A stretch of 64,000 bases of DNA from Paludibacteraceae bacterium. GTDB taxonomy: Bacteria; Bacteroidota; Bacteroidia; Bacteroidales; Paludibacteraceae. The notes under the pieces were generated by a model. That model was given only the letters and a program-made list of their open reading frames with translations, was not told the origin of the DNA and did not search any database. The position numbers and the translations under genes were made by a program. Below are positions 1,477-24,040 of this stretch, in pieces (positions within the stretch are counted from its first letter, which is position 1; the number at the start of each line of letters is the position of its first letter). The stretch covers positions 1 through 64,000 of the forward strand of contig JAKSNS010000001.1 of the NCBI GenBank assembly GCA_024399545.1, given 5' to 3'.

Positions 1477-1575
1477 TTTTCGCCCAGAAAAGTGTAACGA
1501 ATGATAGAATTTTCGCCCAGAAAAGTGTAAGAAACAGTGAAATTTTCGCCCAGAAAAGTGTCAAATATCTGACAA
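1477..1575 (+). repeat. three 33-bp tandem repeats before an ATPase gene
   Basis: The segment TTTTCGCCCAGAAAAGTGT starts at 1477, 1510 and 1543, an exact 33-bp period. The 19-bp constant part includes a small inverted repeat (TTTTC/GAAAA), and about 14 bp between copies vary. The last copy ends 24 bases before the ATG at 1586, so it lies in the promoter/leader region of the ATPase. The core GAAAAGTGT recurs in the arrays before the two other DUF4143 ATPases. Confidence 0.9.
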
Positions 1576-1585
1576 ACAATAGAGT

Positions 1586-2920
1586 ATGAAACGCAAAATA
1601 GAACAGACATTGGAACAGTGGAAAGCCGACGCACGTCGGAAACCCATTGTGCTGAAGGGTTGTCGTCAATGCGGCAAAACATACTCTGTAATGGATTTCG
1701 CACGAAAACATTACCGCACAGTTTTTTATGTCAATTTCATGGACGAGCCAGACATGAAACGAGCCTTTTCTGGTTCAATGTCGGTTGACCAGATCACCAT
1801 GCGTCTGACAGCAGCGAAGCCTTCAGTCTCACTGATACCACACGAAAGTTGCATAGTGTTGGACGAATTGCAGGAGTGTCCCAGGGCGAGAATGGCATTG
1901 AAATCGTTTGCCATGGATGGACGATATGATGTCTTGTGTACAGGCTCGTTGTTAGGAATACAAGGTTACAGACCTCAGAATGAGACAGATGAAGATATAA
2001 AAGCTGATATTCCAGTAGGTTACGAGGATATAGTTACTATGTATCCTATGGATTTTGAAGAGTTTCTATGGGCAAACGGGCAAAACGAGACCTCAATAGG
2101 ACTAATAGAAGAATCATTCCGTAAAGAAGGCATGGTCGAAGATTTCTGGCATCAGCTTTTCAGGTCGCTTTTATTGCAGTATATAGTAGTGGGAGGAATG
2201 CCTGAAGCTGTGCAGACTTTTGTGTCACAACATGATATGGGGCAAGTGTTGAGAGTGCAACGTCGTATAGTTCAGGATTATCGTGCAGACATGCTGAAAT
2301 ATGCACCGCAAGAACTCAAACCGCTTATAACAGAGAGTTTTGACTCTATTCCAATACAGTTGAGCCGTGAAAACAAGAAATTCATGTACTCAACAATCAG
2401 GACGGGCGCACGGTCCAAGAACTACCGACCAACAATCCAATGGATGGAAGATGCTGGCATAATTCAACGATGCAGGAACCTGCAAATCACAGAGTTGCCA
2501 TTGGACGGCAATACGATTGACGATTGCTATAAGGTTTATATGGCAGATACAGGTCTGTTTGTAAGCATGTTGGAAGATGGCACACAGGCGGATATTCTTT
2601 CTGGAAACCTGTTGGGATATAAGGGTGCTATATACGAGAACCTGTTGGCGGACATATTGGGCAAAATGGGGCGTAAACTCTATTATTTCCATAAAGATGG
2701 AGGATTGGAGATTGACTTCATACTTCGTTACAAAGGAAAATGCACATTGTTGGAGTGTAAAGCCAAATCAGGACATACAAAATCCACACGTACGGTTTTG
2801 AATAATCCAGAGCATTACAATATACATCAGGCATTAAAGTTGGGTGACTACAATGTCGGACGAGATGGGAAATTACTGACATTGCCGCTTTATATGGCAT
2901 TTCTATTGAAAGATTTATGA
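1586..2920 (+). CDS. AAA ATPase with DUF4143/PD-(D/E)XK-like C-terminus
   Basis: A 444-aa protein of the COG1373 'predicted ATPase' family, common in Bacteroidetes and of unknown cellular role. Residues 1-170 form an AAA-type ATPase: Walker A in GCRQCGKT (about residue 25) and Walker B in CIVLDELQE (about 90). The rest is the DUF4143 region; near residues 372-392 it shows EIDF followed by LLECKAK, the E/D...ExK pattern of a PD-(D/E)XK nuclease fold. Length is normal and the gene looks intact. It is preceded by the 33-bp repeats, and its stop overlaps the next start (ATGA at 2917), so the cytidylyltransferase is probably translationally coupled to it. Nuclease activity is an inference from the motif. 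Confidence 0.88.
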   Translation: MKRKIEQTLEQWKADARRKPIVLKGCRQCGKTYSVMDFARKHYRTVFYVNFMDEPDMKRAFSGSMSVDQITMRLTAAKPSVSLIPHESCIVLDELQECPRARMALKSFAMDGRYDVLCTGSLLGIQGYRPQNETDEDIKADIPVGYEDIVTMYPMDFEEFLWANGQNETSIGLIEESFRKEGMVEDFWHQLFRSLLLQYIVVGGMPEAVQTFVSQHDMGQVLRVQRRIVQDYRADMLKYAPQELKPLITESFDSIPIQLSRENKKFMYSTIRTGARSKNYRPTIQWMEDAGIIQRCRNLQITELPLDGNTIDDCYKVYMADTGLFVSMLEDGTQADILSGNLLGYKGAIYENLLADILGKMGRKLYYFHKDGGLEIDFILRYKGKCTLLECKAKSGHTKSTRTVLNNPEHYNIHQALKLGDYNVGRDGKLLTLPLYMAFLLKDL

Positions 2921-3612
2921 AAAACGTGGCAGTCATATTGGCAGGAGGCGTGGGAAGCCGTTTGGGGGCTGACAAGCCTAAGCAGTTCCTTGAGATTGGA
3001 AGCAGGATGGTAATCGAAAGGAGCATTGATGCTTTCGAGCGACATAAGGGAATTGACGAGGTTGCAATAGTGATGAACCCTGAGTATGTGGGCGAGATGG
3101 AGGAGATTGTGAAGAGGAATGAATGGAAGAAGGTATCTAAGGTGCTGAAAGGAGGGGCAGAACGTTATATGTCAACATTGTCAGCTATTGAGTCTTACAA
3201 AAATGCTGGCGAGGTCAATATGATATTTCATGATGCGGTTCGTCCACTGGTCAGTCAGGCGATAATTGACCGAGTGATAGAGGCGTTGGAAAGACATAAA
3301 GCGGTTGGTGTCGCCGTAAAGGTTACAGACACTATATGGGAAGTCGATGGCAGTACAATTAAGTCTGTTCCAAACCGCAACATATTGCGAAAAGCCCAGA
3401 CTCCACAAGCATTCAGGTTGAGTGTGATAAAAGAGGCTTATCGCCGAGGATTGCAAGACCCAGAGATGAGCAGCACTGACGATTGCGGGATGGTGATGCG
3501 TTATATGCCGGAAGAGAAAATCTTCATCGTCGAGGGCGAAGAGAGGAATATGAAACTGACTTATAAAGAGGATATTTCATATATCGAGATGTTGGTGAAT
3601 AAGCAAAAATAA
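2917..3612 (+). CDS. IspD/TarI-type cytidylyltransferase
   Basis: A 231-aa enzyme that transfers CMP from CTP to a polyol phosphate. The N-terminal nucleotide loop LAGGVGSRLGADKPKQF, the signature FHDAVRPLVS near residue 108, and the tail KLTYKEDI place it in the IspD/TarI family. IspD makes CDP-methylerythritol for isoprenoids; TarI-like paralogues make CDP-ribitol for teichoic-type polymers. Its place inside a glycan locus, next to a TagD-like enzyme and a TagF-like transferase, favours CDP-polyol supply for a surface polymer. No TarJ-like reductase is visible beside it, so ribitol is not proven, and a second ispD elsewhere would settle it. Confidence 0.75.
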   Translation: MKNVAVILAGGVGSRLGADKPKQFLEIGSRMVIERSIDAFERHKGIDEVAIVMNPEYVGEMEEIVKRNEWKKVSKVLKGGAERYMSTLSAIESYKNAGEVNMIFHDAVRPLVSQAIIDRVIEALERHKAVGVAVKVTDTIWEVDGSTIKSVPNRNILRKAQTPQAFRLSVIKEAYRRGLQDPEMSSTDDCGMVMRYMPEEKIFIVEGEERNMKLTYKEDISYIEMLVNKQK

Positions 3613-3951
3613 TTGGCTTTTTGTGGAATATCTGGTAAATATACAGTAGAGAACGATGAGTATGCAGAATGCATCTGATTACACATCAACATACGTCCGA
3701 TAAAAACATAGAAAGACTATAGATACTCTGTCGATACTTTTTTGATAAATCGATGTGATGCCATAGTAACTCCACTCCTATTGCGGAGAAATTGCAGAAA
3801 CAGAGCGGAAAAAGAGTGGAAGCATAGAAATCATTGATAATGATTCGAGAGTAAAAGAATCTCAAATCCGACTTTAGGAAGAGATTGAAAGTTGGATAAA
3901 TTACTTATATTAAGAAGAATAGTATATAAATACAATAAAAGTTATACAAAT
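3613..3951. other. intergenic stretch without recognised gene
   Basis: About 340 A+T-rich bases between the two cytidylyltransferase genes. No coding frame, strong terminator or clear TAnnTTTG promoter was found. An in-frame TTG at 3892 would extend the next gene by 20 residues, but that extension does not resemble the family. Confidence 0.5.
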
Positions 3952-4413
3952 ATGATAATTGGATATACAGCAGGTGTTTACGATTTATTTCATATTGGAC
4001 ACCTAAATCTCTTGAAAAATGCCAAGGGTATGTGTGACAAACTCATAGTAGGTGTCACTACTGATGACTTGGTAACTTATAAAGGCAAACATGCAATGAT
4101 TCCATTTGAGGATAGGATGGAAATAGTTCGCAGCATTAAATATGTTGATGCAGCCGTACCACAAAGTGACATGGACAAATTGACTATGTGTAAGAAACTT
4201 GGTGCATCATTCCTTTTTGTAGGCGATGATTGGTATGGCACAGACAAATGGAAAAATTATGAAAAAGAGTTTGAAGAAGCAGGAATAAAGATTATCTATT
4301 TTCCTTATACTAAGGGAGTTTCTTCGACATTAATCAATAAAGCACTCGGCCAGGTTAGAGATAATCCAGAAACAGCAATAAAACGAGAACACATCATATT
4401 GAAAGAATACTAA
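3952..4413 (+). CDS. TagD-like glycerol-3-phosphate cytidylyltransferase
   Basis: A 153-aa nucleotidyltransferase expected to join CTP and glycerol 3-phosphate (or a related alcohol phosphate) into a CDP-linked donor. It has the GVYDLFHIGHLNLL motif at residues 7-20 with the HxGH signature, RMEIVRSIKYVD (about 70), VGDDWYG (about 105) and VSSTLI near the end, equivalent to the RTxGISTT segment of TagD. The ATG at 3952 was chosen because the family starts within a few residues of the GxxD/HxGH motif. The family uses CDP-glycerol in teichoic acid synthesis, matching the TagF-like gene at 7204. Base composition is visibly A+T-richer than the flanks. Confidence 0.82.
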   Translation: MIIGYTAGVYDLFHIGHLNLLKNAKGMCDKLIVGVTTDDLVTYKGKHAMIPFEDRMEIVRSIKYVDAAVPQSDMDKLTMCKKLGASFLFVGDDWYGTDKWKNYEKEFEEAGIKIIYFPYTKGVSSTLINKALGQVRDNPETAIKREHIILKEY

Positions 4414-4424
4414 ATTTGGTTGTC

Positions 4425-4931
4425 ATGAATAGTTACACTTTGAAAAAAGCAGATATACATATTTTTTGTGTAGATGTTGCCATAATCAGTATTGCAATGC
4501 TGATTCCCTTTTTCTCTCATTTGTTTATTCCATTGTATCAGTTTAATCCTATTTTATTTTTGCTGATGTTAAGTATCCCATATTACAGTAATCAATGGAA
4601 TGCGCACATACTGGCTACCGCAATTCCTTTATTATCTTTCTTGATAATTGGAATGCCCACATTGACCAAAGTTTACAGCATGGTGATTGAATATAACGTC
4701 GTTTTATATGTATATTTTCTTTTGCAAGACAAAATGGCAACCCGTCATATTTCCTCAATGTTTGTAATGATGTTTTTTGCCATATTTGTAGGAAAGTGTG
4801 CCTATTACTTATCAAAAACCATATTATTGGTAGGAACAATGGTTATTGATACTCCTGTTATTATACAATCTATATCGAGTATTGTAATAGCTCTGATTAG
4901 TTCTGTATTTGCAAAATTTAAGAATAGATAG
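4425..4931 (+). CDS. small multi-pass membrane protein
   Basis: A 168-aa hydrophobic protein with about five predicted membrane segments and a short basic C-terminus (FAKFKNR). No family was recognised. A TTG at 4416 could start it three codons earlier; ATG at 4425 is preferred. It starts 11 bases after the TagD-like gene and ends 2 bases before the ligase gene, so it belongs to the same operon. It may be a membrane subunit of polymer assembly or transport, but nothing in the sequence proves this. Confidence 0.65.
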   Translation: MNSYTLKKADIHIFCVDVAIISIAMLIPFFSHLFIPLYQFNPILFLLMLSIPYYSNQWNAHILATAIPLLSFLIIGMPTLTKVYSMVIEYNVVLYVYFLLQDKMATRHISSMFVMMFFAIFVGKCAYYLSKTILLVGTMVIDTPVIIQSISSIVIALISSVFAKFKNR

Positions 4932-4933
4932 AA

Positions 4934-5968
4934 ATGGAAGATAGGTTATATTGTTGCAATTCATTCCTGATATATCGCTATATTGCAGACGAAAACAAGC
5001 AATTCCGTTCGGATATAAAACCATATTTTTTCAAACCTAACCCTAATGAATATAAAATAAGAGGGTTAGAAGATACGGAGCATTCCATAAAAAACTATAT
5101 CGATGAGATTGTCGCATCTGGAGGGAAAATAGGATTGGCATTGTCTGGCGGCATTGATTCTGCAATATTGGCAAAATATGTTCCTAAAGGCACACCGACA
5201 TATACCTTTCATAGCGATTTACCTGGTGTGTTGGATGAGACATCTCAGGCAAAACAATATGCAAACGCCTGTGGCCTAGGAAATACTGTGATAGACATTA
5301 AATGGGAGGATGCAAAAAAGAATGCAGAGATACTTATGCGTCATAAAGGTGCTCCTATTCATAGTATTGAAGTCCAAATATATGCAGCTGCATGTCAGGC
5401 ACGGGAAGATGGAGTGACGCATTTATTGTTTGGGGAAAATGCTGATATAGTGTTTGGCGGTATGGATGGATTATTAGCAAAAGATTGGACTTTTGATGAA
5501 TTTGTGAAGAGATATTCGTACTTAGATCCGACAAAGGTATTAGTTGACGGCCGATGGGAAATGAAACCATTCGAGACTTTTAGAAAAGGAGACAACATTG
5601 ATTTCTATGGCTTTATTCGTCATTATTTTTATTACGAAGCCAATAATTCATACGACAATGCATGTGCTACTGCAGGTGTGAAATATTCAACACCCTTCAA
5701 TAGAATGCGTTTGCAATTTCAATTGGATTATGACAGAATAAGAAAAGGTGATACAAAATACGTACTTCGTGAGTTATTTAATAAATTATACCCCAATATG
5801 GGACAACCAGTCAAAGTGCCAATGCCTCGTGCCGTCACTCAATGGTTACAGGATTGGGAAGGACCATCGAGAAAAGAGTTTATTCCACATTGTGCCGATG
5901 GATTAAAGGGTGATCAGCGTTGGATGATTTATATCTTGGAACGTTTTTTGAATTTACTTGACAAATGA
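4934..5968 (+). CDS. asparagine-synthase-like ATP-dependent ligase
   Basis: A 344-aa protein with an AsnB-type synthetase domain. The PP-loop SGGIDSA lies near residue 71, followed by the LLFGENADIVFGG segment around 165-178. Unlike true AsnB it has no N-terminal glutaminase domain (no catalytic Cys2), so it would use ammonia or a partner's amine, or adenylate another substrate. Enzymes of this type in glycan loci amidate or aminoacylate sugars; here a modification of the polymer or its precursor is plausible. The stop overlaps the next start (ATGA at 5965), implying coupling with the DUF362 gene. Confidence 0.8.
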   Translation: MEDRLYCCNSFLIYRYIADENKQFRSDIKPYFFKPNPNEYKIRGLEDTEHSIKNYIDEIVASGGKIGLALSGGIDSAILAKYVPKGTPTYTFHSDLPGVLDETSQAKQYANACGLGNTVIDIKWEDAKKNAEILMRHKGAPIHSIEVQIYAAACQAREDGVTHLLFGENADIVFGGMDGLLAKDWTFDEFVKRYSYLDPTKVLVDGRWEMKPFETFRKGDNIDFYGFIRHYFYYEANNSYDNACATAGVKYSTPFNRMRLQFQLDYDRIRKGDTKYVLRELFNKLYPNMGQPVKVPMPRAVTQWLQDWEGPSRKEFIPHCADGLKGDQRWMIYILERFLNLLDK

Positions 5969-7185
5969 AAATTTTGAATATGCCGAAAATAGCAATTGCC
6001 AGTGCCGACAGTTACCATCCTTTGCAGGTTAATGCGGCGATAGATTCTATGATGATTTCTTTAGGTTTAGACCCTGAAAATCCATTCAAGGAAATCATCA
6101 AACCAGGTATGCGTGTTTTCATAAAACCAAATTGGGTTGCATCCCGTTGGCGTGAATCGTGTGACCATAGAGACAATTTGTATTGTGTAATAACTCATCC
6201 AAATGTAATAGAAGCAGTGGCAGATCGAGTTGCCAAGGCTCTTGACGGACAAGGCGAAATTATAATTGCAGACAATCCTTCGATTGATGCCGACTTTGAA
6301 GAACTTATGCTGTTTACTGGAATTCGCAAATTGCAAAATAAGTACAATGTTTCATGCAAGATTTATGATTTGCGCCCATTGGTATGCAAGAATTTAAAGG
6401 ATTATGGACAACGTGATAAGATGGTACATCAACCAGGTGACCCTTTAGGGGAAGTAGAGGTAAACATTGGTAAAGACAGTCTGCTCTATAACGTAGATTC
6501 CACATTGTTCCGTGGAGTATTTAATGAAAGAGAAGAAACAGTTGCAGCACATACAGGTGATACACAACTATATACTTTTGCCCGTAGTTTGTATGATGCT
6601 GATATCTATATTTCTATTCCAAAATTAAAAACACATCAGAAAGTTGGAGCGACTCTTAATTTAAAAGGACTGGTTGGTTCAATTACGCAAAAAAATCAAC
6701 TTGTACATTGGCGTATAGGTACACCTGAAACAGGAGGAGATGAATATCCAGACAGACAGAGTTGGGAAGCTGCCCAACAAGCCAAGGTGACCCACCGAGG
6801 CGCTCACCCATGTAATGATACTATATGGCGTATGGTTGCAGACCTGTATCAAAGTCTTCTCACCAAAGAACGTCAATATTTTACTATTATTGATGGCATT
6901 ATGGCAGGTGAAGGGAAAGGACCTTTTTGTCCCACATCAAAACATGCCAATACTTTGATAGGTGGCTTTGATTTGCTTTTGGCAGATATTGTTGCTGTGC
7001 GATATATGGGATTTGACCCAAATAAAGTCAAATATCTGAAGTTCTTTATTGATAAATGGAATCTGAATCTGAGTGACATTGAAGTTTTTGTTGACAAAGA
7101 ACTGAAAACTGATTTCTTTGTGTCTGATTCTCGTTACAAGGATTTTCTTCTTCCCGATGCTTGGAATATTATAAAAGTGGATTAA
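5965..7185 (+). CDS. DUF362-domain protein
   Basis: A 406-aa protein of the DUF362 family (COG2006). Family features are FIKPNWVA near residue 51, ADNPSIDADFEEL (about 104), PKLKTHQKVGATLNLKGLVG (about 218) and DGIMAGEGKGP (about 310). Many relatives carry ferredoxin cysteine clusters; none is visible here, so it is the cofactor-poor form. The family's biochemistry is poorly defined. Tight coupling to the AsnB-like ligase suggests the two act on one substrate in the surface-polymer pathway, which is inference. Confidence 0.8.
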   Translation: MKILNMPKIAIASADSYHPLQVNAAIDSMMISLGLDPENPFKEIIKPGMRVFIKPNWVASRWRESCDHRDNLYCVITHPNVIEAVADRVAKALDGQGEIIIADNPSIDADFEELMLFTGIRKLQNKYNVSCKIYDLRPLVCKNLKDYGQRDKMVHQPGDPLGEVEVNIGKDSLLYNVDSTLFRGVFNEREETVAAHTGDTQLYTFARSLYDADIYISIPKLKTHQKVGATLNLKGLVGSITQKNQLVHWRIGTPETGGDEYPDRQSWEAAQQAKVTHRGAHPCNDTIWRMVADLYQSLLTKERQYFTIIDGIMAGEGKGPFCPTSKHANTLIGGFDLLLADIVAVRYMGFDPNKVKYLKFFIDKWNLNLSDIEVFVDKELKTDFFVSDSRYKDFLLPDAWNIIKVD

Positions 7186-7203
7186 TCTATTATAATAGTC
7201 TGT

Positions 7204-8544: not shown

Positions 8545-8723
8545 TTCATTGTATGAGTCCACTTGAAAAAGTCTAAAAATGCATTTTGTGATTTATTATA
8601 CAGTGATAATCAATCTTGTATTTTGCGATTTTTTGCAAGAAACGACTTTTTCGGGTAGGTTCTTATTTTATGATTTTTTGATAAAAAAGTATAACCTATA
8701 GGAAGTTTGACTGACCTAAAAAC

Positions 8724-8795
8724 GTCAACTTGGTGAATGAAAAAGTGTCAACTTGGTGAACAGAAAAAAGGCAACCATTTGACGAACAGAAAATT
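8724..8795 (+). repeat. three ~23-bp tandem repeats before the ATPase remnant
   Basis: GTCAACTTGGTGAATGAAAAAGT starts at 8724 and is repeated at 8747 as GTCAACTTGGTGAACAGAAAA; a third, more diverged copy starts at 8770 (GGCAACCATTTGACGAACAG). The period is 23 bp. Further degenerate A-run copies lie upstream from about 8674 (GATAAAAAAGTATAACC). The array ends about 33 bases before the start codon at 8829. It shares the GAAAAAGTGT core with the arrays at 1477 and 23939. Confidence 0.85.
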
Positions 8796-8828: not shown

Positions 8829-9612
8829 ATGAACGACTATAAAAATAGGATAGCAGACTACCTGTTGGAAGAGCAACTTGAAGCAGTTGGAGCCGTGCTT
8901 ATACAAGGTCCAAAATGGTGTGGCAAGACCACCACGGCTGCCCAATGTGCAAATAGTGTCGTATATATGGACGACCCTGCGCGCAAGGATATTTATCTCA
9001 AAATGGCAGAAACGGCACCATTGATTCTGTTTGAAGGGGCTAAGCCAAGGCTCATTGACGAATGGCAGCTTGCACCGCAACTATGGGATGCTGCAAGGTT
9101 TGACATAAGCCAGAAAGGTGAAAATGGCTTATACATTTTCACAGGTTCATCAGTGCCGGCAGATGAAAGCAAGATAACGCATTCTGGCGTAGGCCGTTTT
9201 GGCAAGATAACCATGCGTCCAATGTCGTTATGGGAGTCCGGGGAATCGAATGGTTCCGTCAGTCTTGCCTCAATGTTCGATGGTGAGATGAAGGCGGCAA
9301 CAGCCGATGCCAAGACAATTGAGGAACTTAGCTTCCTTATTTGCAGGGGTGGCTGGCCTGGGTCATTGACACTGAAGCCAAAAGCTGCGCTGTTGCAGGC
9401 ACGGAATTATGTGGATATTGTGGCTGACTAAGCTCGGTGGGGAGACACTTGTCGAGAGTGGTGCATCTTCGTTACTTAAACTCGCCTCGAAGATTGATAC
9501 CGACAAAATGAAGGCACCATCGTTTATGATGGTGGTTACTGGTGTCGGGGAATATGCTTATCGCCGTGATGACGGCGTTTGCGTTGTCCCAATAGGAGCG
9601 CTGAAACATTGA
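8829..9612 (+). pseudogene. AAA/DUF4143 ATPase with internal deletion
   Basis: Remnant of a second-subtype COG1373 ATPase. The first frame (8829-9431) gives an intact ATPase half: Walker A in GPKWCGKT, Walker B in RLIDEWQ, then FTGSS and MRPMSLWESGESNG. It breaks off at QARNYVDIVAD and a stop. From about 9425, in the +1 frame, the family's C-terminal end follows: KLGGETLVESGASSLLKLAS, then IDTDKMKAPSF and VVPIGALKH, ending at 9612. The middle DUF4143 part, by family length roughly 150-200 residues, is missing, so a deletion also shifted the frame. The upstream repeat array is kept. Confidence 0.8.
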
Positions 9613-11253: not shown

Positions 11254-11254
11254 T

Positions 11255-12255: not shown

Positions 12256-13386
12256 ATGAAAATAGAAATAAATCCCTTCATTACAAGTGGTTATGCAGGT
12301 CCAGAGTATTTTTGTGACAGAGTACAAGAGACTCAAGACATCATCGACTTGCTCACAAACGGCAACAATCTGGCACTAATTTCGCCTCGACGTTTGGGGA
12401 AAACGGATTTGTTGCGCCATTGTTTCTCGCAACGTCAGATACAGGAGCATTACTATACCTTCATAATCGATATCTACTCGACCAATTCGTTGGCTGAAAT
12501 GGCCGACCGTATGGGCAAAACTATACTGGAGAGCCTCAAACCAAAAGGACGTAGGGTGTGGGAATCATTTCTGAATGTAATGTCGTCAATCAAATCTTCG
12601 ATTACGTTTGATTCATTCGGAATGCCGTCTTGGAGTGTGGGCATTGGTGATATTCACAATCCCTCCGCCACGTTAGACGAGATATTCAGATATCTGCAAC
12701 AAGCGGATAAACCATGTTTGGTTGCTATTGACGAGTTTCAGCAAATACTGAAATATGGTGACAATCAGGTTGAAGCTGCTATGCGCACACACATACAATA
12801 CTGCGGCAACGCGCATTTTGTCTTCTCGGGATCTCAACGACATCTGATGGGGAGCATCTTCACTTCGTCGGCACGTCCTTTCTACCAGAGTGTCACAATC
12901 ATCAATCTTTATCCGATTGCATTGGATAAGTATTCCGAGTTTTGTCATAAACAATTTGCATTGGGCAATAAAAGCCTTGACGATGACCTGATTGTACAAA
13001 TATACAATAAATTTGAAGGAGTGACTTTTTATCTTCAGAAGGTCATGAATATCCTTTATATGCGTACTCCTGAAAACGGGAATTGTTCGATAGACGAACT
13101 GCAGCCGGCCATTGACTACATAATAGACTTTACTGCAGGGACATACCAGGATCTGATGTATCAGTTACCTGAGAAACAGCATATTGTATTACGCGCAATC
13201 AGTCAGGATTGCAAAGTCAGCCAAATTAAGTCGGGCTCATTCGTAAAGAAACATGCACTTGTTTCGGCAAGTTCGGTCAATTCTGCCGTCCGGGCTCTCA
13301 TGGATAAGGATCTTGTGACACAAGACCAGGGATACTATCAGGTTTACGACAAATTTCTTGCTATCTGGCTGAACCGCCAACAATGA
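12256..13386 (+). CDS. AAA ATPase, COG1672-like
   Basis: A 376-aa predicted ATPase of the archaeal-type/COG1672 group, abundant in Bacteroidetes. It opens with INPFITSGYAGPEYFCDRVQ, the usual start before the P-loop. Walker A is SPRRLGKTDLL (about residue 48) and Walker B is CLVAIDEFQQ (about 155), followed by VFSGSQRHLMGSIF, a sensor-like motif. The C-terminal 90 residues look like a winged-helix region. Unlike the DUF4143 genes it shows no PD-(D/E)XK signature and has no repeat array upstream. Role unknown; relatives are suggested to be NTP-dependent switches in defence or signalling. Confidence 0.85.
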   Translation: MKIEINPFITSGYAGPEYFCDRVQETQDIIDLLTNGNNLALISPRRLGKTDLLRHCFSQRQIQEHYYTFIIDIYSTNSLAEMADRMGKTILESLKPKGRRVWESFLNVMSSIKSSITFDSFGMPSWSVGIGDIHNPSATLDEIFRYLQQADKPCLVAIDEFQQILKYGDNQVEAAMRTHIQYCGNAHFVFSGSQRHLMGSIFTSSARPFYQSVTIINLYPIALDKYSEFCHKQFALGNKSLDDDLIVQIYNKFEGVTFYLQKVMNILYMRTPENGNCSIDELQPAIDYIIDFTAGTYQDLMYQLPEKQHIVLRAISQDCKVSQIKSGSFVKKHALVSASSVNSAVRALMDKDLVTQDQGYYQVYDKFLAIWLNRQQ

Positions 13387-13891: not shown

Positions 13892-15076
13892 CTATGGAAC
13901 AATGGCATCATCATCCTCGTTATCACAGTTTATCAACTGCAGCAATTCATCCTTTGGAGGGAGCACAGCTTTCAACCGCTCATCCATATCGCTATAAGTT
14001 TTATATGTGGCAACACCCATAGGGTGGTCATAATCCTGAATGACATATTCCACAAATGATTTGTCTGCCTTCTTGCAAAGGATAAGTCCTATTGAAGGGT
14101 TCTCGCCAGCAAGTTTCTCGTCGTCATTCAATATTCTGAGATATGCAGACAACTGACCGAGGTAACTTGGCTTGAATTCGCCTTTCTTTAGTTCAATTGC
14201 CACGAGGCTTTTCAGCTCACGGTTGAAGAAAAGAAGATCCACCCAACTGTCATGTCCCAGTTTGTCATAATGCACTTGATGTCCGATGTATGTGAACGAG
14301 CGGCCAAATGCCATTATATAATTTTTTATGTTCATCACAATCTGCTTCTCTATCACACGCTCATCGATGTCTTCGGGATCCATCTCGTCAATCTCCTCCA
14401 CATTAATGAAATCAAGCAGGTATTGATCTTTGAACATCTGCAATGTCTGCATTGCCAGTTTCTTGTCTGGAATAGTCTTGAAGAAATTGCTTGGGATACG
14501 GTCTTGTTTTTCATAGACCTTTGCTTTCAGTAATGTTTCCAGATCATCTACTTTCAGTCGTTGGTTGTAAGCCAACTGAATGTAATACTTCCGTTCGTCC
14601 AATGTCTCTGTATAACGAAGAATCATTGAATGATGAGAAAAACTGATGTTCAGAAATGCTATAATTGGGAATTCCTCATATCCTGTCAGCTTCAATGGGT
14701 ATATCATATCCAAATCGGTAATCGGGATTACCGATTTGTCGATATTGTTAATTTTTGTATTTTCGGTAATCGGAATTACCGATTTGGGCTCTATTTCTCT
14801 CCATTCCTCGTAGAACGTGCGCATTCTCTTTATCATACTGGCAGAAAAACCTCTCAAACCCGGCAGTTCTGTTTTCAGCAGTTTGCTGATTGATTCTATG
14901 GCATTCTGTCCCCAGAAACCCTTTCGCGAATTTTCGGACACAAAGCGTCCTATGCCGAAATAGAGAGCCAGTTGCTCCTGATTAACGGCCTGTGCTGCAC
15001 GAGTCTGACTTTGCAGGATGGCAGTTTTTATGGTGGCTACCGCCTTGTTGATTCTTGTAATATCGTTATTCTCCAT
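13892..15076 (-). CDS. DUF1016 (YhcG-like) PD-(D/E)XK nuclease family protein
   Basis: A 394-aa protein. Residues 1-100 are the DUF1016 N-terminal helical domain (IGRFVSENSRKGFWGQNAI, LRGFSASMIKRMRTFYEEW). A variable linker holds a repeated KSVIPIT heptad 16 residues apart, encoded by two near-perfect DNA palindromes (around 14714 and 14764). The C-terminal half is a PD-(D/E)XK nuclease-like domain: VDLLFF then AIELKKGEF near residues 275-300. Relatives are linked to mobile and defence loci; biochemical function is not established. The gene lies between two direct repeats (R1, R2) and has its own promoter at 15256 with a long leader. Intact by length. Confidence 0.88.
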   Translation of the reverse strand: MENNDITRINKAVATIKTAILQSQTRAAQAVNQEQLALYFGIGRFVSENSRKGFWGQNAIESISKLLKTELPGLRGFSASMIKRMRTFYEEWREIEPKSVIPITENTKINNIDKSVIPITDLDMIYPLKLTGYEEFPIIAFLNISFSHHSMILRYTETLDERKYYIQLAYNQRLKVDDLETLLKAKVYEKQDRIPSNFFKTIPDKKLAMQTLQMFKDQYLLDFINVEEIDEMDPEDIDERVIEKQIVMNIKNYIMAFGRSFTYIGHQVHYDKLGHDSWVDLLFFNRELKSLVAIELKKGEFKPSYLGQLSAYLRILNDDEKLAGENPSIGLILCKKADKSFVEYVIQDYDHPMGVATYKTYSDMDERLKAVLPPKDELLQLINCDNEDDDAIVP

Positions 15077-16833: not shown

Positions 16834-16842
16834 ATAAATAAA

Positions 16843-17094
16843 TCAATGTTTTTCTGGTACATAGCATTGGATTATACCCACAGTCTCGAAATCTTTTCCG
16901 AAACAGTTCTCGTCCAGGAACTTATAGCCATGAGAGGTATAGAATCTGCGACGAGCATCAGCATCCTCATGCGATTCTGCAATGTCGATATAGATATCCT
17001 CGCCAAACTGCTCTTCCCAACCCATGAAATACAATGCTATCATTGGTTGAAAGTCAGGATGCTGTTCAATAAAATGTTTTGTGTTGTTTTTCAT
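16843..17094 (-). CDS. hypothetical protein, 83 aa
   Basis: A small soluble acidic protein (YIDIAESHEDADARRRFY in its middle) without a recognised domain. Its ATG overlaps the stop of the 53-aa membrane protein gene (TAATG at 17096..17092), so translation is probably coupled. No signal sequence. Confidence 0.6.
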   Translation of the reverse strand: MKNNTKHFIEQHPDFQPMIALYFMGWEEQFGEDIYIDIAESHEDADARRRFYTSHGYKFLDENCFGKDFETVGIIQCYVPEKH

Positions 17095-17255
17095 TATTTT
17101 GACATCTTCCTTTTCACTCTTTCATCTTCATCCGCCATATATTTTAGTAGATATACCAAGGCAGAGACGATTAAGATTCCAACAATAATTGAAATTGTCC
17201 AATCTATTACGCCTCCATTAAAAATATTTTCAATAAACATTATTGTTCTCATCAT
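17094..17255 (-). CDS. single-span membrane protein, 53 aa
   Basis: A short gene starting with tandem ATGs (17255 and 17252). It encodes a 53-aa protein with one membrane segment (WTISIIVGILIVSALVYLL) and a charged tail rich in K, R, D and E (MADEDERVKRKMSK). Its stop overlaps the next start, and it lies just downstream of the 250-aa membrane protein, supporting a real operon gene. Function unknown. Confidence 0.55.
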   Translation of the reverse strand: MMRTIMFIENIFNGGVIDWTISIIVGILIVSALVYLLKYMADEDERVKRKMSK

Positions 17256-17274
17256 TACACATACTATTAATTTG

Positions 17275-18027: not shown

Positions 18028-18156
18028 ATCTACTATTTTATTTTGATTTCAAATACCTAATTTCAGCTCTTGATTAACTTTTAAGACAAACGAAATATAT
18101 TTCTTCAGAAAGAGAAAGATAGGCTTGAATTTATTAATTCTATTCATCAGCCATAG

Positions 18157-18933
18157 CTACCGATTATATAACTTATACGCATTATTGTATGTCAATGCTA
18201 AATATTCCTCTTCTGTTAATTTTTTACGCAACTTATTTAGCATGTTGAAGCAATATGTTTTGTAATCAAACTCTTCTACTTTTTTTCCATCAAGATAGTT
18301 ATAATAATAACTCATGACGGGAATGTCTGTTCCCCACATTACACGGTTGCCTACTCCTGCATTAAACATTTTCAAAATATCCTCGGTTGGAGTAAATGCT
18401 GTATCCGCATAAGCATTGGGGTATTTGGACAATATTCGTATTGTCTGGTCAACTGGACGACTGTGGGCAATTACAAACTTGACATCTGGAGTAGCGGCAA
18501 TCAGTGGCTCATAATCATCAGGCATACACATTTCATTGCCACAATGAAACAACAAAGGCACATTGAGTTGGCGTGCCAAATCTGTAGCTTGAAGCATCAA
18601 TGAGCTTAGAGAATCGCCCCATTGCCCACGTTGCTGATAGTTATGAACCTTCACGCAACACCATTTGATGCCGCTTTCTATAAAACGAGTAATTGCACCT
18701 GTTTTCAACATTTTTGGCGAAATCCACAGAACAGGATGAATTGTCACTTCGTTTTGTGAGACCAACTCTTCCATTTCGGAAAACACAAGGTCAAAATCCT
18801 CGTCTGCCATAGTTGACGAGGATACTCCGACATCTGTGATACCCACTTGCTTGCAGATATTTATGAAATCAGCAGGTGTAAAATAACATTCGTGAAACCT
18901 GCCAACATGAGTGTGCGAGTCAAACAGTCTCAT
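18157..18933 (-). CDS. amidohydrolase-family metal-dependent hydrolase
   Basis: A 258-aa TIM-barrel hydrolase of the amidohydrolase_2/TatD-like type (COG2159). Metal ligands expected for the family are visible: HTH in FDSHTHVG (residues 6-8), H in LLFHCGNE (about 134), H in IAHSRP (about 159) and D in WGTDIPV (about 204). Its ATG overlaps the stop of the radical SAM gene by 4 bases, so the two are translationally coupled. In this cluster it may hydrolyse a modified peptide or small product; the substrate cannot be inferred from sequence. Confidence 0.78.
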   Translation of the reverse strand: MRLFDSHTHVGRFHECYFTPADFINICKQVGITDVGVSSSTMADEDFDLVFSEMEELVSQNEVTIHPVLWISPKMLKTGAITRFIESGIKWCCVKVHNYQQRGQWGDSLSSLMLQATDLARQLNVPLLFHCGNEMCMPDDYEPLIAATPDVKFVIAHSRPVDQTIRILSKYPNAYADTAFTPTEDILKMFNAGVGNRVMWGTDIPVMSYYYNYLDGKKVEEFDYKTYCFNMLNKLRKKLTEEEYLALTYNNAYKLYNR

Positions 18934-20402
18934 ATATTATGTTTTTTGAGTTCTTTCTCAAAATACTCGTGTGCAAGACGTTTTGTCAAGAAGGCAACAT
19001 CACAGAAATGCTTGTTGATTTTCATCATATCTCCACCACTCTCATTATAGTTTCGAACAAGACAACGTGCGCAAAAATCACGGGCTTCACATTCAACGCA
19101 CTGAGGAAAATCAGCCTGTGTTATTTTTCGCAACTCTTTAACCTCACTGTTTTCCCAAATGTCAAGCAATGATTGCTTATAGACATTGCCAAGTACCATA
19201 GATTGCCAGCCTGCACAAGGATATACATCGCCATTTGCCGTAATGCAGCAATTGTCGTAACCAACACCGCAAATACGCTGCTTTTTATATCGTTCGATGT
19301 CAAACTTGATTTCTTCGCTGATAGGACGCTTGTTGACAATCATCTGCTTATAAGTAGGGTCAAATTCCATAATGTCACGAAGCAGTTCTTCTGTCTCTTC
19401 AATTGATATCCTGTTTGCAAGATTGCTCGTGTCGAAATTTGCTTCTGCCATCATTATGAAATCTGTCTGCGCCTTTATCTTAAGCGAATTTGCATACTCA
19501 AGCACTGCACGATAACCTTTTCTGTTTGCTTTCATCACAGGACAGGAAATCTGAACAGGAACATCAGCCGCCACAAGTTTCTCGATGACTGCTTTGGTCT
19601 TGGCAAACGAGCCTTTGACAGTTGTAATCATGTCATGGATTTCTGGATCCATGCTGTAAAGTGAAACCTGAATGAGCGAAATGTTAAGGTCATGCAGGAG
19701 CTGTATCTGCTCATCTTTTACTGCGATAAGATTGCTTAGCACAGATACCATCATGTCTTTCTCACGGGCATAGCGAATCAATTCTATCAAGTCCTTATGC
19801 ATAAATGCCTCTCCTCCAGAAAAAGTCACATGCAGTCCACCCATTGCAGCAAGTTGGTCAATAAGGTCTTTGACTTTTGCCGTTGGCATGTCAAAGCCAT
19901 GATTCTTCTTCTCGTTTGGAATATAGCAGTGAATGCATCGCTCATTACAAAGGCTTGTCAGTTCAAACTGAATGTTTGAAATCAGCGGACGACCTTGCAC
20001 CTCTTCCAAGAAAAAGTCCCGGGTGTTTTCACTAATAGGCTTTTCCGTGACTTGGTAGAAATCTGTAGCCAATGTCTTTGGATCACCCATTGAGTAGGAG
20101 AATGTCAAATCCTTGGCATCTAATTCCTCTGGCGATTTGCCAATCATTATGAAATGATCTTTGGCAAGACTTTCTGCAAACTCCATAAAGTCTGCTTTCA
20201 ATGTTCCGAAATCGACATCTTTATAGATTGTCAAAAGATGGTTGACTATATCGTCAACACATTTTGGCTCACGAGATATTTCTCTGAGCAAATCACCACC
20301 AAATGAATCATAACTGCGGTCATGACGTGTTAATTGGTTCGTGATGTATCCGTAACGTTCTGTTGTTCGGATGAAGGAGTTTTTGGATTGCTTTACAAAC
20401 AT
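18930..20402 (-). CDS. radical SAM/SPASM peptide maturase
   Basis: A 490-aa enzyme expected to modify a ribosomal peptide using S-adenosylmethionine and iron-sulfur clusters. Residues 1-90 look like a PqqD-type peptide-binding domain (YGYITNQLTRHDRSYDSF). The radical SAM site is CNERCIHC (Cys152, 156, 159), then TFSGGEAF. From about residue 385 it has a SPASM region with many cysteines: CGVGYDNCC, NGDVYPCAG, CVECEARDFCARC and a final C. That supports two auxiliary clusters. It lies downstream of a 54-aa Cys peptide and an 85-aa coiled-coil protein, overlapping the latter by 10 bases. The link to the peptide is inference from context; no ABC exporter is seen nearby. Confidence 0.88.
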   Translation of the reverse strand: MFVKQSKNSFIRTTERYGYITNQLTRHDRSYDSFGGDLLREISREPKCVDDIVNHLLTIYKDVDFGTLKADFMEFAESLAKDHFIMIGKSPEELDAKDLTFSYSMGDPKTLATDFYQVTEKPISENTRDFFLEEVQGRPLISNIQFELTSLCNERCIHCYIPNEKKNHGFDMPTAKVKDLIDQLAAMGGLHVTFSGGEAFMHKDLIELIRYAREKDMMVSVLSNLIAVKDEQIQLLHDLNISLIQVSLYSMDPEIHDMITTVKGSFAKTKAVIEKLVAADVPVQISCPVMKANRKGYRAVLEYANSLKIKAQTDFIMMAEANFDTSNLANRISIEETEELLRDIMEFDPTYKQMIVNKRPISEEIKFDIERYKKQRICGVGYDNCCITANGDVYPCAGWQSMVLGNVYKQSLLDIWENSEVKELRKITQADFPQCVECEARDFCARCLVRNYNESGGDMMKINKHFCDVAFLTKRLAHEYFEKELKKHNI

Positions 20403-20650
20403 GATTGTGTCTTTAGTTCCCGAAGAATTTCTTCTAATAATGATTTTATTTCTTGCAAATCCTTTTCTTGTATACCAGTCTTATTGGATTGTTTGATGGA
20501 CATTGTATCAAGAGAATTTTCAAAATTTGGATTAGAAAACATCTCGATTTTATGAATTCTTCTTTGAGAATTATCTCTATATACTTTTATTTGCCACTGT
20601 AACCTCTTTTGTGGGTTAACTAACAACTGAAGGATTTCTTGCTGTGTCAT
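20393..20650 (-). CDS. small coiled-coil protein, 85 aa
   Basis: A soluble 85-aa protein starting MTQQEILQLL, with a probable C-terminal helix or coiled coil (EKDLQEIKSLLEEILREL) ending TQSCL. Its end overlaps the radical SAM start, implying coupled translation. It may be an accessory or partner protein of the maturase; no family was recognised. Confidence 0.6.
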   Translation of the reverse strand: MTQQEILQLLVNPQKRLQWQIKVYRDNSQRRIHKIEMFSNPNFENSLDTMSIKQSNKTGIQEKDLQEIKSLLEEILRELKTQSCL

Positions 20651-20694
20651 AATATGCGTTTATATTAAGGAATTAACTTTTTTGATTGTTGCCG

Positions 20695-20725
20695 ATTAAA
20701 AAATGAGTGCGTTTACACGCACTCA
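20695..20725 (-). terminator. hairpin after the precursor gene
   Basis: TGAGTGCG (20704-20711) pairs with CGCACTCA (20718-20725) around a 6-base loop, and on the minus strand it is followed by ATTTTTTAATC. It fits a partial terminator that would keep precursor RNA in excess over the downstream maturase genes. Confidence 0.7.
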
Positions 20726-20738
20726 TAATCAGAAATGA

Positions 20739-20903
20739 TTATCCAGCGATTTCGCACATATAGCAATACTGAGGAGCTGACATAGTACTTCCTCCTGGGA
20801 CAAGAACACTTGAACCTGCTTTCTGTTGAGCAGGACAACCTGCAGCATAAGAACCAGTAGGAAGGTTCTTTGCAATCATTTCTGCTTTTTGATAAGCTTT
20901 CAT
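20739..20903 (-). CDS. candidate RiPP precursor peptide, 54 aa
   Basis: A 54-residue peptide with a charged helical start (MKAYQKAEMIAKNL) that could be a leader, then a Gly/Ser/Ala/Pro-rich C-terminal part with three cysteines: SYAAGCPAQQKAG, VPGGSTMSAP and QYCYMCEIAG. It has no signal peptide. It is directly upstream of a hairpin and then of the maturase operon, the usual order for radical-SAM peptide systems. The Cys residues and the small side-chain context would suit thioether (sactipeptide or ranthipeptide) chemistry, but the modification is not known. It matches no precursor family that I can name. Confidence 0.68.
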   Translation of the reverse strand: MKAYQKAEMIAKNLPTGSYAAGCPAQQKAGSSVLVPGGSTMSAPQYCYMCEIAG

Positions 20904-20977
20904 AATAAATAATTTTTTGTTGTGCTATGGACACTTGCACGTTTATAGATAAGTTTATATAACATCTGCCCACAATG

Positions 20978-21283
20978 TCATTTAAATTTCACATCTTGAT
21001 TAGATTGATTAATCAACAAACAGCCATTGATTAAATGAAGACATTCCGATGTCCCTGCAAAAGAACAATTGTTCGCATATTTGCAAGGATTTGGTGCTCT
21101 AAACAGTTTGTTATTCATCGTAGTCAAATAATTTGTTGCATATAGAATTATGTAATGGTTCTTATTCTGAGTAATTTTTGATTTGGCAAATTTGAAAAGA
21201 TATGTATATTTACGCAGAATAATATCTTGTGTTGTTATTGTTGACAGGTCAACAATTGCGATAAGGTTAACATCTTTGTCCAT
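20978..21283 (-). CDS. hypothetical Cys-containing protein, 101 aa
   Basis: A 101-aa protein whose last third contains four cysteines (CKYANNC, then CLHLINGC). No family recognised. It starts within the end of the 98-aa gene (49-base overlap in another frame), which suggests coupling or a frame error. It lies 75 bases upstream of the precursor gene and may belong to the same cluster. Confidence 0.5.
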   Translation of the reverse strand: MDKDVNLIAIVDLSTITTQDIILRKYTYLFKFAKSKITQNKNHYIILYATNYLTTMNNKLFRAPNPCKYANNCSFAGTSECLHLINGCLLINQSNQDVKFK

Positions 21284-21531
21284 ATGACTGTATTTTTACA
21301 GCGTATATAAACTCCGTTAAAATTGTTATTGATGTCAAATAAGAAAACAAATGTAGGATCATTTGTTGCCATCGTTTCTTTCCTTAGACAGTCGTTGTCT
21401 TTGTCATAATAAAAATCATATTTGGGCAATTCGGAAATTTCTTCCGCAATTTTCAAACACAATGGTTTGTTGTTTAATCCATTTGCAATAGTAATTGCTA
21501 AATTGTAATTGGTTGTTGCATAGAATTTCAT
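21235..21531 (-). CDS. hypothetical protein, 98 aa
   Basis: A 98-aa soluble protein (KFYATTNYNLAITIANGL at the start, VFLFDINNNFNGVYIRC later). No recognised family. The overlap with the next gene is longer than usual for this genome, so either one start is wrong or the pair arose by a frame change. Its first 80 residues read as an ordinary protein; the last 15 are less convincing. Confidence 0.5.
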   Translation of the reverse strand: MKFYATTNYNLAITIANGLNNKPLCLKIAEEISELPKYDFYYDKDNDCLRKETMATNDPTFVFLFDINNNFNGVYIRCKNTVIWTKMLTLSQLLTCQQ

Positions 21532-21597
21532 ATCACATAGAATATTATTGCCTACTCTTTATGGGATTTTCGGCTTTACTCCCTTTTATTACTTTAT

Positions 21598-21879
21598 TTA
21601 TGCTATTATCAAATAAAATATTGTCACTACAATGAACGGAATAAAGAAACTCCTGACAGCATTAACCAAGAAGCGACCAAAGCCAAAAGACATCAATGAA
21701 CCAATCTTTGTGCTGAGCAAGCCTGTTATCGAGAAGCCCAAGATGCCATCAAATATAGCACCGATTATTCCACCAGGTATTGCAAGGATTGCCCCTATGA
21801 TGGCACATACATTAATCGAGGTTTCATAACCTGCCCAATTAAGGATGGCAAAGGATATTATTCCAAGGAGTACTATCAT
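21598..21879 (-). CDS. small glycine-rich membrane protein
   Basis: A 93-aa hydrophobic protein with about three membrane segments and small-residue motifs (AIIGAILAIPGGIIGAIFDG). This resembles the GlsB/YeaQ/transglycosylase-associated membrane group only loosely. It begins just after the terminator of the candidate noncoding RNA and could be transcribed from read-through. Function unknown. Confidence 0.55.
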   Translation of the reverse strand: MIVLLGIISFAILNWAGYETSINVCAIIGAILAIPGGIIGAIFDGILGFSITGLLSTKIGSLMSFGFGRFLVNAVRSFFIPFIVVTIFYLIIA

Positions 21880-21913
21880 GTCTTTGTCCGTTATATCAGT
21901 TAAGTATGGACAT

Positions 21914-21950
21914 AAAAAAACGTGGAACTTACATTGTCGTCAGTTCCACG
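21914..21950 (-). terminator. intrinsic terminator
   Basis: CGTGGAACT (21921-21929) and AGTTCCACG (21942-21950) form a perfect 9-bp stem, followed on the minus strand by seven T residues. Confidence 0.85.
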
Positions 21951-22347
21951 ATACGAGGCCTTCGCATGCCCATCAATTAAAAACCAACAACACGAAGCCC
22001 ACGCCGATATATAATCACCAACTACACCTTAATATAATATAAGCACACAAAATACGCAAATATTATAAACGGTGCAGCAAGATGCAATTATACATCCCGC
22101 AGACATTCAATGCTGCATAGTCCTATAATTGATTCTGAAAGTTGCGAAGTTTCGTATCAATAGAACTAAGCGTCAAATGAACGCCTTTAATATGTCCTTG
22201 CAGGCTTTTTCATCCTGCGGTAGGGAACGTTTTCCCGACCTCCCACCCGAATAGAGAAACATATTCCCTTTCAGCGTGGACTATTTTGCGGCTTTACATC
22301 CCGCTGATGTCGCAGTTTTCAAGTCTTGCGAGGGACTATCACTATTC
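21914..22347 (-). ncRNA. candidate structured noncoding RNA, about 430 nt
   Basis: A complete transcription unit without a convincing gene: a promoter at 22354-22384 and a strong intrinsic terminator at 21914-21950. Several hairpins lie between, for example ACATCagcggGATGT near the 5' end. The only leftward frame of note is 29 codons long (MFLYSGGRSGKRS start). It matches no RNA family I can name (not tmRNA, SRP or RNase P by their core motifs). Start is inferred from the promoter, end from the terminator. Confidence 0.5.
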
Positions 22348-22353
22348 CGGCTG

Positions 22354-22384
22354 CAAAGGTACGACATTTTTCTGGACTCACCAA
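22354..22384 (-). promoter_or_regulatory. promoter of the candidate ncRNA
   Basis: TACCTTTG (22361..22354) with TTG (22384..22382) and a 20-base spacer is a good Bacteroidetes promoter. The 210 bases beyond it, up to the ATPase stop at 22596, hold nothing recognised. Confidence 0.7.
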
Positions 22385-22595
22385 GCATTTTGCCTTATAT
22401 TTTTTTTGGTAGTGTTGTAATCTTCATCTCTCATGTTCACTCTGCCTCAGCGTTAGTGTCACACGTTCTACCATCGCTATGTAGATAGACCTTGTGAAAA
22501 AGCAAAAGTCTGAGGTATGATTAATGCTTGGACTTAACTTCCGATAATATTTCAACATCGATATTTACAGAGTCTCATAGCACTGAAACACAGCA

Positions 22596-23903
22596 CTAAT
22601 CGTGGTACTTTTGCTCTAAATATTCCCTGAAAGCGTACAGCGGAATATTTTCGAGCCAAGGTTGATTCTCATAGCCTTTCATACTCAGTCTGAGACCCTT
22701 AAGATTTGGATTGGTTTCTATGAATACCTTCATGGATTTGGATTTCACGTTTTCCTCAGCCTTGACCTCAACTGGATATACATTGTCACTGAGTTGAATA
22801 ACGAAGTCCAGTTCTATCCGGGATTGCTCAACGGTATGGTAGGAAACCGGTATCTGCGTTGTTGCCAGTTGCGAATAAACATAAACTTCAGTAAATGCGC
22901 CTTTGAATTCCTTGAAGATATTGTCACCTACCATTATCTGGCTGGCAGGCACATCCGCCATTGCTCCCATGAGTCCAACATCAATGATGAACAGTTTGAA
23001 CGCATCTCTGTCCTCATAGAATTTCAACGGCATTTGCACAGAAGTGACACGATTTATTCTATAAACTATGCCAGCATCCGTCAACCATTGAATTGCCTCT
23101 TCAAAATCGGAAGCACGGGCACCTTTTCTCAATGCACCAAAAATGAATTTTTTGTTCTCCTTAGCCAATTGCGAGACTATACTCTGCCACACCATCCTTA
23201 TGCGCGGAACGACACGTGCAGGAGCATGTTTGCTGAAGTCACGGTCGTAGTCTCTCAATATAAGTTTCTGTTCAGAACGCACAGCGTTCAACCCTCTGCC
23301 ATCAACGTATGCCTTTACGGCTGCAGGCATACCTCCGACATAGTAATACTGTCGGAGAAGGTCGATATATTCGTCTGATATAGCATTAATTATGCTCCAT
23401 TCATTTTGTTTGAGCAGTTCCTCCATCTGGTCTTTACCATTAGCCCGCAGAAATTCTCCGAATGTCATTGGATAAAGATACAACTCATCCACTTTCCCTA
23501 CTGGATATGAAACACCTTCATGCAAGGCAATGCCATGCAGACTGCCACACGCAGCCACGTGTATGTCGGGCGCATCTTCCGCAAACACCTTCAAGCGTGT
23601 AAGAGCAACGGGGCAGTCCTGTATCTCGTCAAGAATAACAAGCGTATCGTGTGGCGTGATGTCAATACCAGTAATGGCCGAAAGACCTCTCAATAGTTTT
23701 TCCGCACTATTCTCAGTTTGCATCAGTTGACGAGCTGCTTTGTCTCGGTCAAAACTTATGAATGCAGTTTTTGCATATACTTTTCTGCCGAATTCCTTCA
23801 ATAGCCAGGTTTTGCCCACCTGTCTTGCTCCGAATAGCACCAATGGTTTTCTTACGTCCGAAAAATGCCATTTTTCCAAACTTTCATATAATATTCTATA
23901 CAT
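22596..23903 (-). CDS. AAA ATPase with DUF4143/PD-(D/E)XK-like C-terminus
   Basis: A 435-aa, apparently intact COG1373 ATPase. Walker A is GARQVGKTWLL (about residue 25), Walker B is LVILDEIQDCP (about 90). YYVGGMPAAVKAYVDGRG (about 187) is the conserved segment at the start of the DUF4143 part. Near residues 362-380, IELDF followed by YPVEVKAEE gives the D...ExK nuclease-like signature. It resembles the ATPase at 1586 in layout, but the sequences are clearly diverged. It is preceded by its own array of three 33-bp repeats. Cellular role is unknown; nuclease activity is an inference. Confidence 0.88.
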   Translation of the reverse strand: MYRILYESLEKWHFSDVRKPLVLFGARQVGKTWLLKEFGRKVYAKTAFISFDRDKAARQLMQTENSAEKLLRGLSAITGIDITPHDTLVILDEIQDCPVALTRLKVFAEDAPDIHVAACGSLHGIALHEGVSYPVGKVDELYLYPMTFGEFLRANGKDQMEELLKQNEWSIINAISDEYIDLLRQYYYVGGMPAAVKAYVDGRGLNAVRSEQKLILRDYDRDFSKHAPARVVPRIRMVWQSIVSQLAKENKKFIFGALRKGARASDFEEAIQWLTDAGIVYRINRVTSVQMPLKFYEDRDAFKLFIIDVGLMGAMADVPASQIMVGDNIFKEFKGAFTEVYVYSQLATTQIPVSYHTVEQSRIELDFVIQLSDNVYPVEVKAEENVKSKSMKVFIETNPNLKGLRLSMKGYENQPWLENIPLYAFREYLEQKYHD

Positions 23904-23938
23904 AGCACTGACAATCAGAAAGATGATTTATTTTATTA

Positions 23939-24040
23939 CATTTTTTCAACTGAATATTCAGCACTACACAACACTTTTTTAACTGAATATTCAGTGTTAT
24001 ACCACACTTTTTCAACTGAATATAGGACATCCAAATGCGA
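23939..24040 (-). repeat. three 33-bp tandem repeats before an ATPase gene
   Basis: AACTGAATATTCAG starts at 23948 and 23981; a partial form is at 24014, so the period is exactly 33 bp. CTGAATATTCAG is a perfect 12-bp palindrome. In the direction of the gene each unit reads ATTCAGTTGAAAAAGTGTGG or similar, with the core GAAAAAGTGT. The copy nearest the gene ends about 35 bases from its start codon. Confidence 0.9.

Follow-up and report, generated by a model that had tools for sequence, protein, structure and literature searches.

What does a short tandem array of repeats do directly in front of an ATPase gene, and which protein reads it? The question is raised by a 64,000-nucleotide stretch of a Paludibacteraceae bacterium genome (contig JAKSNS010000001.1 of assembly GCA_024399545.1, positions 1 to 64,000; hereafter the window), in which three genes assigned to the DUF4143 ATPase family are each preceded by such an array. 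Our answer, to which we give a probability of roughly two in three on the strength of sequence comparisons, is that the DUF4143 ATPase of the array-bearing clades is a sequence-specific binder of the array at its own promoter, with autoregulation and control of its state. The array is most likely a polar binding platform at the promoter of the gene that it precedes.

The source genome (2.3 Mb in 67 contigs) contains 19 DUF4143 matches, and 17 of these 19 genes have an upstream array when a self-offset score of at least 20 is required of the upstream sequence; across nine genomes of the genus, this is the case for 69 of 97 genes. As controls we used 289 open reading frames (ORFs) drawn from roughly 440 kb of this genome, sampled as 20-kb stretches. 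Fifteen reached the cut-off, three of them being DUF4143 genes themselves and two flanking a gene of the ATPase_2 family with a 53-bp array; after removal of these five, arrays precede other genes in 10 of 284 cases. The Fisher P values for the enrichment (5e-19 in the source genome, 1e-41 in the genus) are indications only, because related genes were counted separately. The preliminary description of the window had expected its proposal to fail if most DUF4143 genes lacked arrays or if unrelated genes had them as often: most genes of the genus do have one, and other genes rarely.

Seven of the 10 remaining control matches come from one dispersed family of 11-bp repeats, and the rest are either coding repeats or unrelated ones; the repeats found apart from the ATPases were traced to this (CGTTAATSTAT)n family, to coding repeats and to a 21-bp repeat. 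The 11-bp repeat occurs in the window at 27271-27384, between YfhO-like and L25-like genes, and at other sites of the genome (L126, L130, L133) that are not linked to ATPases. The ATPase_2-family gene (L138:2095-3534, or C67:22095-23534 of the source genome) is related to DUF4143 but distinct from it; its 53-bp array of five copies is shared with a divergent D-lysine aminomutase gene, and further archaeal-type ATPase families may have arrays too.

The arrays are regular in geometry and diverse in sequence. Periods of 22, 23, 32 or 33 bp account for 67 of the 69 genus arrays, the shorter two corresponding to two helical turns and the longer two to three. In stacked copies the spacing is constant and the spacer sequence variable; copies inside one array are homogenised, and the array sequence differs from one ATPase gene to the next. 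On the protein tree, array type tracks the ATPase clade, and whole clades have no arrays. A single core shared by all arrays was ruled out, as the cores sort by clade.

The 23-bp clade was scanned in named genomes (80 loci, 77 with enough upstream sequence). A score of at least 20 was found at 68 of the 77, with a period of 23 or 46 in nearly all; the 68 include one run of N and one 28-bp repeat that masks a weaker 23-bp array. Arrays of this clade are present in Bacteroidota, Clostridia, Erysipelotrichales, Negativicutes, Treponema, Gardnerella and Fibrobacter, single taxon labels being uncertain because most records are metagenome bins; isolates with such loci include Porphyromonas levii, Traorella, Neglectibacter, Gardnerella and Treponema vincentii. 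The 87 arrays that could be put in register give an asymmetric consensus, GCCAAA-N6-GAANRAAAA plus a variable tail, whose orientation relative to the gene is identical in 85, the two reversed ones fitting poorly. On plasmids, a Bacteroides ovatus homologue (56% identity) has a 23-bp clade array and a Collinsella homologue (40% identity) a weak one (score 16); homologues on plasmids of Thermus, Actinomyces and Parabacteroides (33-clade) have no array above chance. Phylum-wide sampling beyond the order yielded few close 23-clade genes, and a search of the source genome with the 23-bp pattern matched only the ATPase arrays at contigs C12 and C14.

The identity of the reader was addressed by corrected mutual information between protein residues and array bases in 75 protein-array pairs of the 23-bp clade. 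Residue 346 paired with bases 1 and 2 leads by far (z 10.3 and 10.6, the next value being 5.3), and among the signals that follow are those linking several residues of the recognition helix (248-258) to bases 10-15. Indeed, K346 is paired with C2 in 52 of 52 cases, and S, A, N, T or G346 never is. Phylogenetically independent pairs, counted with residue classes picked after the data were seen, stand at 7:0 for residue 346 and base 2, 10:0 for residue 254 and base 12, and 7:1 for residue 248 and base 11. Because of this post hoc choice, and because an unbiased scan, which covered 32,509 combinations, left no single test surviving correction (its two best combinations both involve residue 254 with base 11), three rules were fixed before new loci were fetched. 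From the order, 49 new loci had enough upstream sequence and fell within the 90% identity limit, and 45 of them carry a 23-bp array. Where the register could be trusted, C2 occurs with K346 in 17/17 and with S or A346 in 0/5 (rule 1), and G12 occurs with D/E254 in 8/9 and with other residues in 1/18 (rule 2); the corresponding Fisher P values, 4e-5 and 3e-5, ignore relatedness. The third rule, residue 248 with base 11, failed. Since the rules for residues 346 and 254, set in advance, hold on new loci, the 23-bp clade ATPase is very probably the reader of its own array. The preliminary description had left the choice between the ATPase and a cognate factor; the covariation points to the ATPase, and the idea of a further factor loses ground.

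These positions fall in the predicted winged helix and nuclease of a domain set made up of an AAA+ ATPase (AAA_14), a winged helix and a PD-(D/E)XK nuclease (DUF4143). Residue 346 sits in the nuclease, in a hairpin that immediately precedes the invariant E350-x-D352, and residue 254 is the start of the recognition helix in the AlphaFold2 (AF2) model; on the unit, the bases that they appear to contact are separated by about one helical turn. The Walker residues and the nuclease E, D and E-x-K are invariant in alignments of 47 and 84 sequences. The AF2 models are confident (mean predicted local distance difference test 93 for the 22596..23903 protein, model mdd2bd788e03b). The folds closest to the window protein are the archaeal ATPases 2qen (Z 16.2, root-mean-square deviation 4.8 over 267) and 2fna (Z 15.3, 4.1 over 263), followed by STAND proteins and ORC; with the 23-clade model, Foldseek returned Cdn1/Card1, 2fna and Cdc6/Orc1 on origin DNA. 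A sequence search of the PDB gave AAA+ matches to midasin only, and no relative turned up when viral contigs were searched with the window protein.

The two intact window proteins match the PADLOC profile PDC-S01 (E 1e-142 and 2.6e-167), as do proteins of the 23- and 22-bp clades (E 1.3e-59 and 2.9e-175). PDC-S01 is introduced in the passages devoted to it as a candidate single-gene defence family, an ATPase fused to a PD-(D/E)XK nuclease with antiphage validation pending, and as the fourth most common prokaryotic defence candidate, with 29,494 bacterial and 9,986 archaeal systems (PMC12988326); in rumen genomes it is given as the most frequent single locus (PMC13356809). These are the same proteins as ours, encoded by a single gene and very widespread. 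The passages on PDC-S01 in both papers mention no upstream array, cognate DNA site or mechanism; the array link comes from the present analysis, and its novelty is provisional given this partial coverage of the literature.

Within the window, Tandem Repeats Finder recovered all three arrays where the preliminary description had placed them (Table 1), and they are not due to chance: the self-offset score is 38 and 35 for the two 33-bp arrays, and none of 324 first-order Markov simulations exceeded 14. All three downstream genes had been taken for DUF4143 ATPases, which is correct for the two intact ones; the gene at 8829 is broken and retains its AAA_14 domain but neither the winged helix nor the greater part of the nuclease. 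The core GAAAA(A)GTGT, thought to be common to the arrays, proved to be a family feature limited to the two 33-bp window arrays, there being several array families, one per ATPase clade. The unit of the 8724 array is GTCAACTTGGTGAAYNGAAAAA, a member of the 23-bp family, and the AAAAAGTGT found there is a product of the unit-unit junction. Nor does every DUF4143 gene have an array, given the clades that lack one. The AAA gene at 12256 has, as had been noticed, no array of this kind, only a 14-bp duplication at the gene start.

Table 1. Arrays, ATPase genes and adjoining gene in the window
Feature	Position	Strand	Remarks
33-bp array, three ATTTTCGCCCAGAAAAGTGT cores	1476..1561 (cores 1476-1495, 1509-1528, 1542-1561)	+	24 bp before ATG 1586
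Intact DUF4143 ATPase-nuclease (AAA_14 + DUF4143, PDC-S01), 33-bp clade	1586..2920	+	
ispD-like gene, directly 3' of cassette	2917..3612	+	
Decaying 23-bp array, good copies at 8724 and 8747, third disrupted	8724..8795	+	33 bp before ATG 8829
Broken 23-clade ATPase, AAA_14 only	8829..9431	+	reading frame stops at 9431
C-terminal remnant of 8829 ATPase (KLGGETLVESG...VVPIGALKH)	9425..9612	+	read from sequence, aligned against L113
Intact DUF4143 ATPase-nuclease (AAA_14 + DUF4143, PDC-S01), 33-bp clade	22596..23903	-	
33-bp array, three CTGAATATTCAGTTGAAAAAGTGT cores, first copy partial	23938..24023	-	34 bp before start at 23903

Other elements of the window deserve mention. Degenerate repeats containing TGACCTATA lie at 60-215, upstream of a glycosyltransferase gene at 300, and are possibly an old array without its ATPase. 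A 21-bp repeat with GCGTCTCTAC occupies 56242-56302, before the gene at 53419, and GTAGAGACGC repeats near a DUF4143 gene of another genome of the set (G003, L062) resemble it. A YhcG/DUF1016 PDDEXK nuclease gene (13892-15076) is found in the same variable region.

Array and gene behave as a single inherited and moved cassette. In about 30 close pairs, the homologous stretch runs from a point inside or close to the array to within about 10 bp of the stop codon, most of these pairs having more than 1 kb of unmatched flank on either side; an exception within the DUF4143 set is the pair G000_C34/G002_C163, with upstream synteny. The cassette measures about 1.4-1.5 kb and contains no second gene. 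The array at 1476 forms the 5' boundary of a homologous cassette common to the window and to G007:C18, and the stop codon of the following ATPase overlaps the ispD start codon. The occupied site in G007:C18 reads ABC gene, promoter, array and ATPase, ispD; its empty counterpart, G006:C17, reads ABC gene, promoter, ispD. Furthermore, G005 and G003 have two different 33-clade ATPases in front of the same downstream gene, and genome G031 holds two copies of 1391 bp that are 99.6% identical to each other and differently flanked. The empty site, the different ATPases before one gene and the G031 duplicate together indicate that the cassette moves, and the cassette limits and this duplicate bear out the earlier suggestion that the arrays travel with their ATPases. 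In the flanks of the ATPase genes at L064 and L048, a terminator hairpin with a promoter immediately after it (AATCTCCATTCG..CGAATGGAGATTTTTTTATACCTTTGCG) was seen, a combination that recurs before and after cassettes in the genus.

A -7 box is located between array and start codon for 38 of the 69 genus arrays, and directly 5' of the array, which is then in the 5' untranslated region, for 12. This placement at promoters speaks for a role in cis, as an operator or as a site of assembly; the array might also serve as a recombination end. In the mechanism that we propose, one protomer would read one array unit; in the 23-bp clade, the recognition helix of the winged helix would read bases ~10-12, and the hairpin before the catalytic Asp of the nuclease would read base 2. 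Because the units are asymmetric, arranged head to tail and two or three helical turns apart, the AAA+ protomers would line up head to tail along one DNA face. The bound assembly would most likely control expression of its own gene, autoregulation being the leading idea, and would hold the enzyme at its locus in a defined state; the protein may also have a role in defence. As the array lies on one side of the promoter at some loci and on the other side elsewhere, the sign of regulation may differ. Many cassettes could coexist in one genome without cross-talk, because the array sequences diverge along with the protein.

Helically phased direct repeats read by AAA+/winged-helix proteins are familiar from plasmid iterons and from the Orc1/Cdc6- and DnaA-type initiators. 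The DUF4143 arrays share the phased direct repeats and, as judged by covariation, reading by an AAA+/winged-helix protein, and Cdc6/Orc1 on origin DNA is among the fold neighbours. Unlike iteron initiators, the ATPase has a fused nuclease domain, in which one of the apparent contacts lies; no sign of a replication origin was seen, no search aimed at one having been made. Autoregulation in defence islands is exemplified by RptR, a separate small homodimer acting on a 6-bp palindrome (PMC12255303), whereas in the present case the ATPase-nuclease itself appears to do the reading, the unit is asymmetric and no second gene moves with the cassette.

Several observations weigh against the ATPase as reader and regulator at its own promoter. 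Covariation in the 33-bp clade, that of both intact window genes, was inconclusive (n=37); reading by these two proteins is therefore an analogy, by which the code of the 23-bp clade would extend to theirs. To this must be added the lack of a corrected survivor in the unbiased scan, the failure of the third rule and the relatedness ignored in the hold-out statistics. In an order-level sample of the 33-clade the array signal was weaker (14 of 30 loci with a score of at least 20); one of the 14 (L274) consists of a run of N, and a few are repeat entries for source-genome loci or overlapping loci. Arrays also occur without an intact ATPase: one precedes a fragmentary ATPase gene (C3:28424), and a 33-bp array of the AAAAATGT family (C34:72450-72524; L289, L350) stands directly before a folK-like gene with no ATPase and is either a remnant or the target of action in trans. 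Finally, arrays on either side of the promoter do not fit a single simple repression geometry.

Could the array instead be the working end of a one-gene mobile element, bound by the ATPase-nuclease in order to cut or move the cassette, with regulation secondary? We consider this unlikely, although much of the cassette evidence would suit it: the limits at array and stop codon, the empty site at G006:C17, the G031 copies, the different ATPases in front of the same target gene, the invariant nuclease residues and the contact of the nuclease hairpin with the array, as judged by covariation. Tn7-type ends are a natural comparison, with short repeats (TnsB sites), the AAA+ ATPase TnsC, the restriction-fold nuclease TnsA and mobility, but here there is one protein, an array at one end, and neither an integrase nor inverted ends were found. 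No clear downstream array copy that could be a second end was present in 21 loci inspected, the single 14/14 downstream match coming from a locus whose best repeat is an unrelated 39-bp element. Of the features expected of transposons and insertion sequences, the same unit at different sites and an empty site were found, but the G031 duplicate, the one case available, has no inverted ends and no target-site duplication, and its left edge lies 36 bp outside the array, within neighbouring ORF sequence. Horizontal transfer via host recombination could yield the same pattern. A related conception, that the ATPase is a self-recognising minimal mobile cassette with a private iteron-like array, taking on a new protein-DNA specificity in each lineage so that siblings can coexist, and with defence as a by-product, seems to us doubtful.

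The remaining explanations separate the array from protein-DNA recognition by the ATPase. In type III toxin-antitoxin systems (ToxIN, AbiQ), the antitoxin is an RNA formed from tandem repeats just upstream of a nuclease gene, and the repeats of constant orientation before a nuclease gene recall this arrangement. A similar role here is nevertheless very improbable: folding of the arrays on both strands gave mean z values of -0.7 and -0.6, that is, no consistent or excess secondary structure (pseudoknots being outside the model), many arrays (38 of the 69) lie 5' of the apparent promoter, arrays often being outside the apparent transcript, the periods are helical multiples, bases covary specifically with the winged helix, and the protein has only the Pfam domains AAA_14 and DUF4143, with no ToxN-type endoribonuclease. 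An unrelated host factor could read the arrays, with the ATPase as a passenger or a regulated gene, and the orphan array before folK would be explained in this way; we regard this as improbable, as each array is specific to its ATPase and covaries with the residues of that very protein, and the cassette has no second gene. Neutral tandem duplication in AT-rich intergenic DNA is hardly credible: the genome does contain other tandem repeats, and copies are homogenised within arrays, but a clade-specific period kept across phyla, a retained consensus and orientation, constant spacing despite variable spacers and the strong enrichment all speak against it.

In conclusion, the link between array and ATPase holds well beyond the window, in the source genome, in the genus and in several phyla. 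Several bacterial PDC-S01 clades gain a likely cognate DNA site and two rules that predict unseen loci, which offers the family a defined substrate together with a binding assay and mutants for swapping specificity. The diverged protein-DNA pairs constitute a natural series in which the evolution of specificity can be studied.

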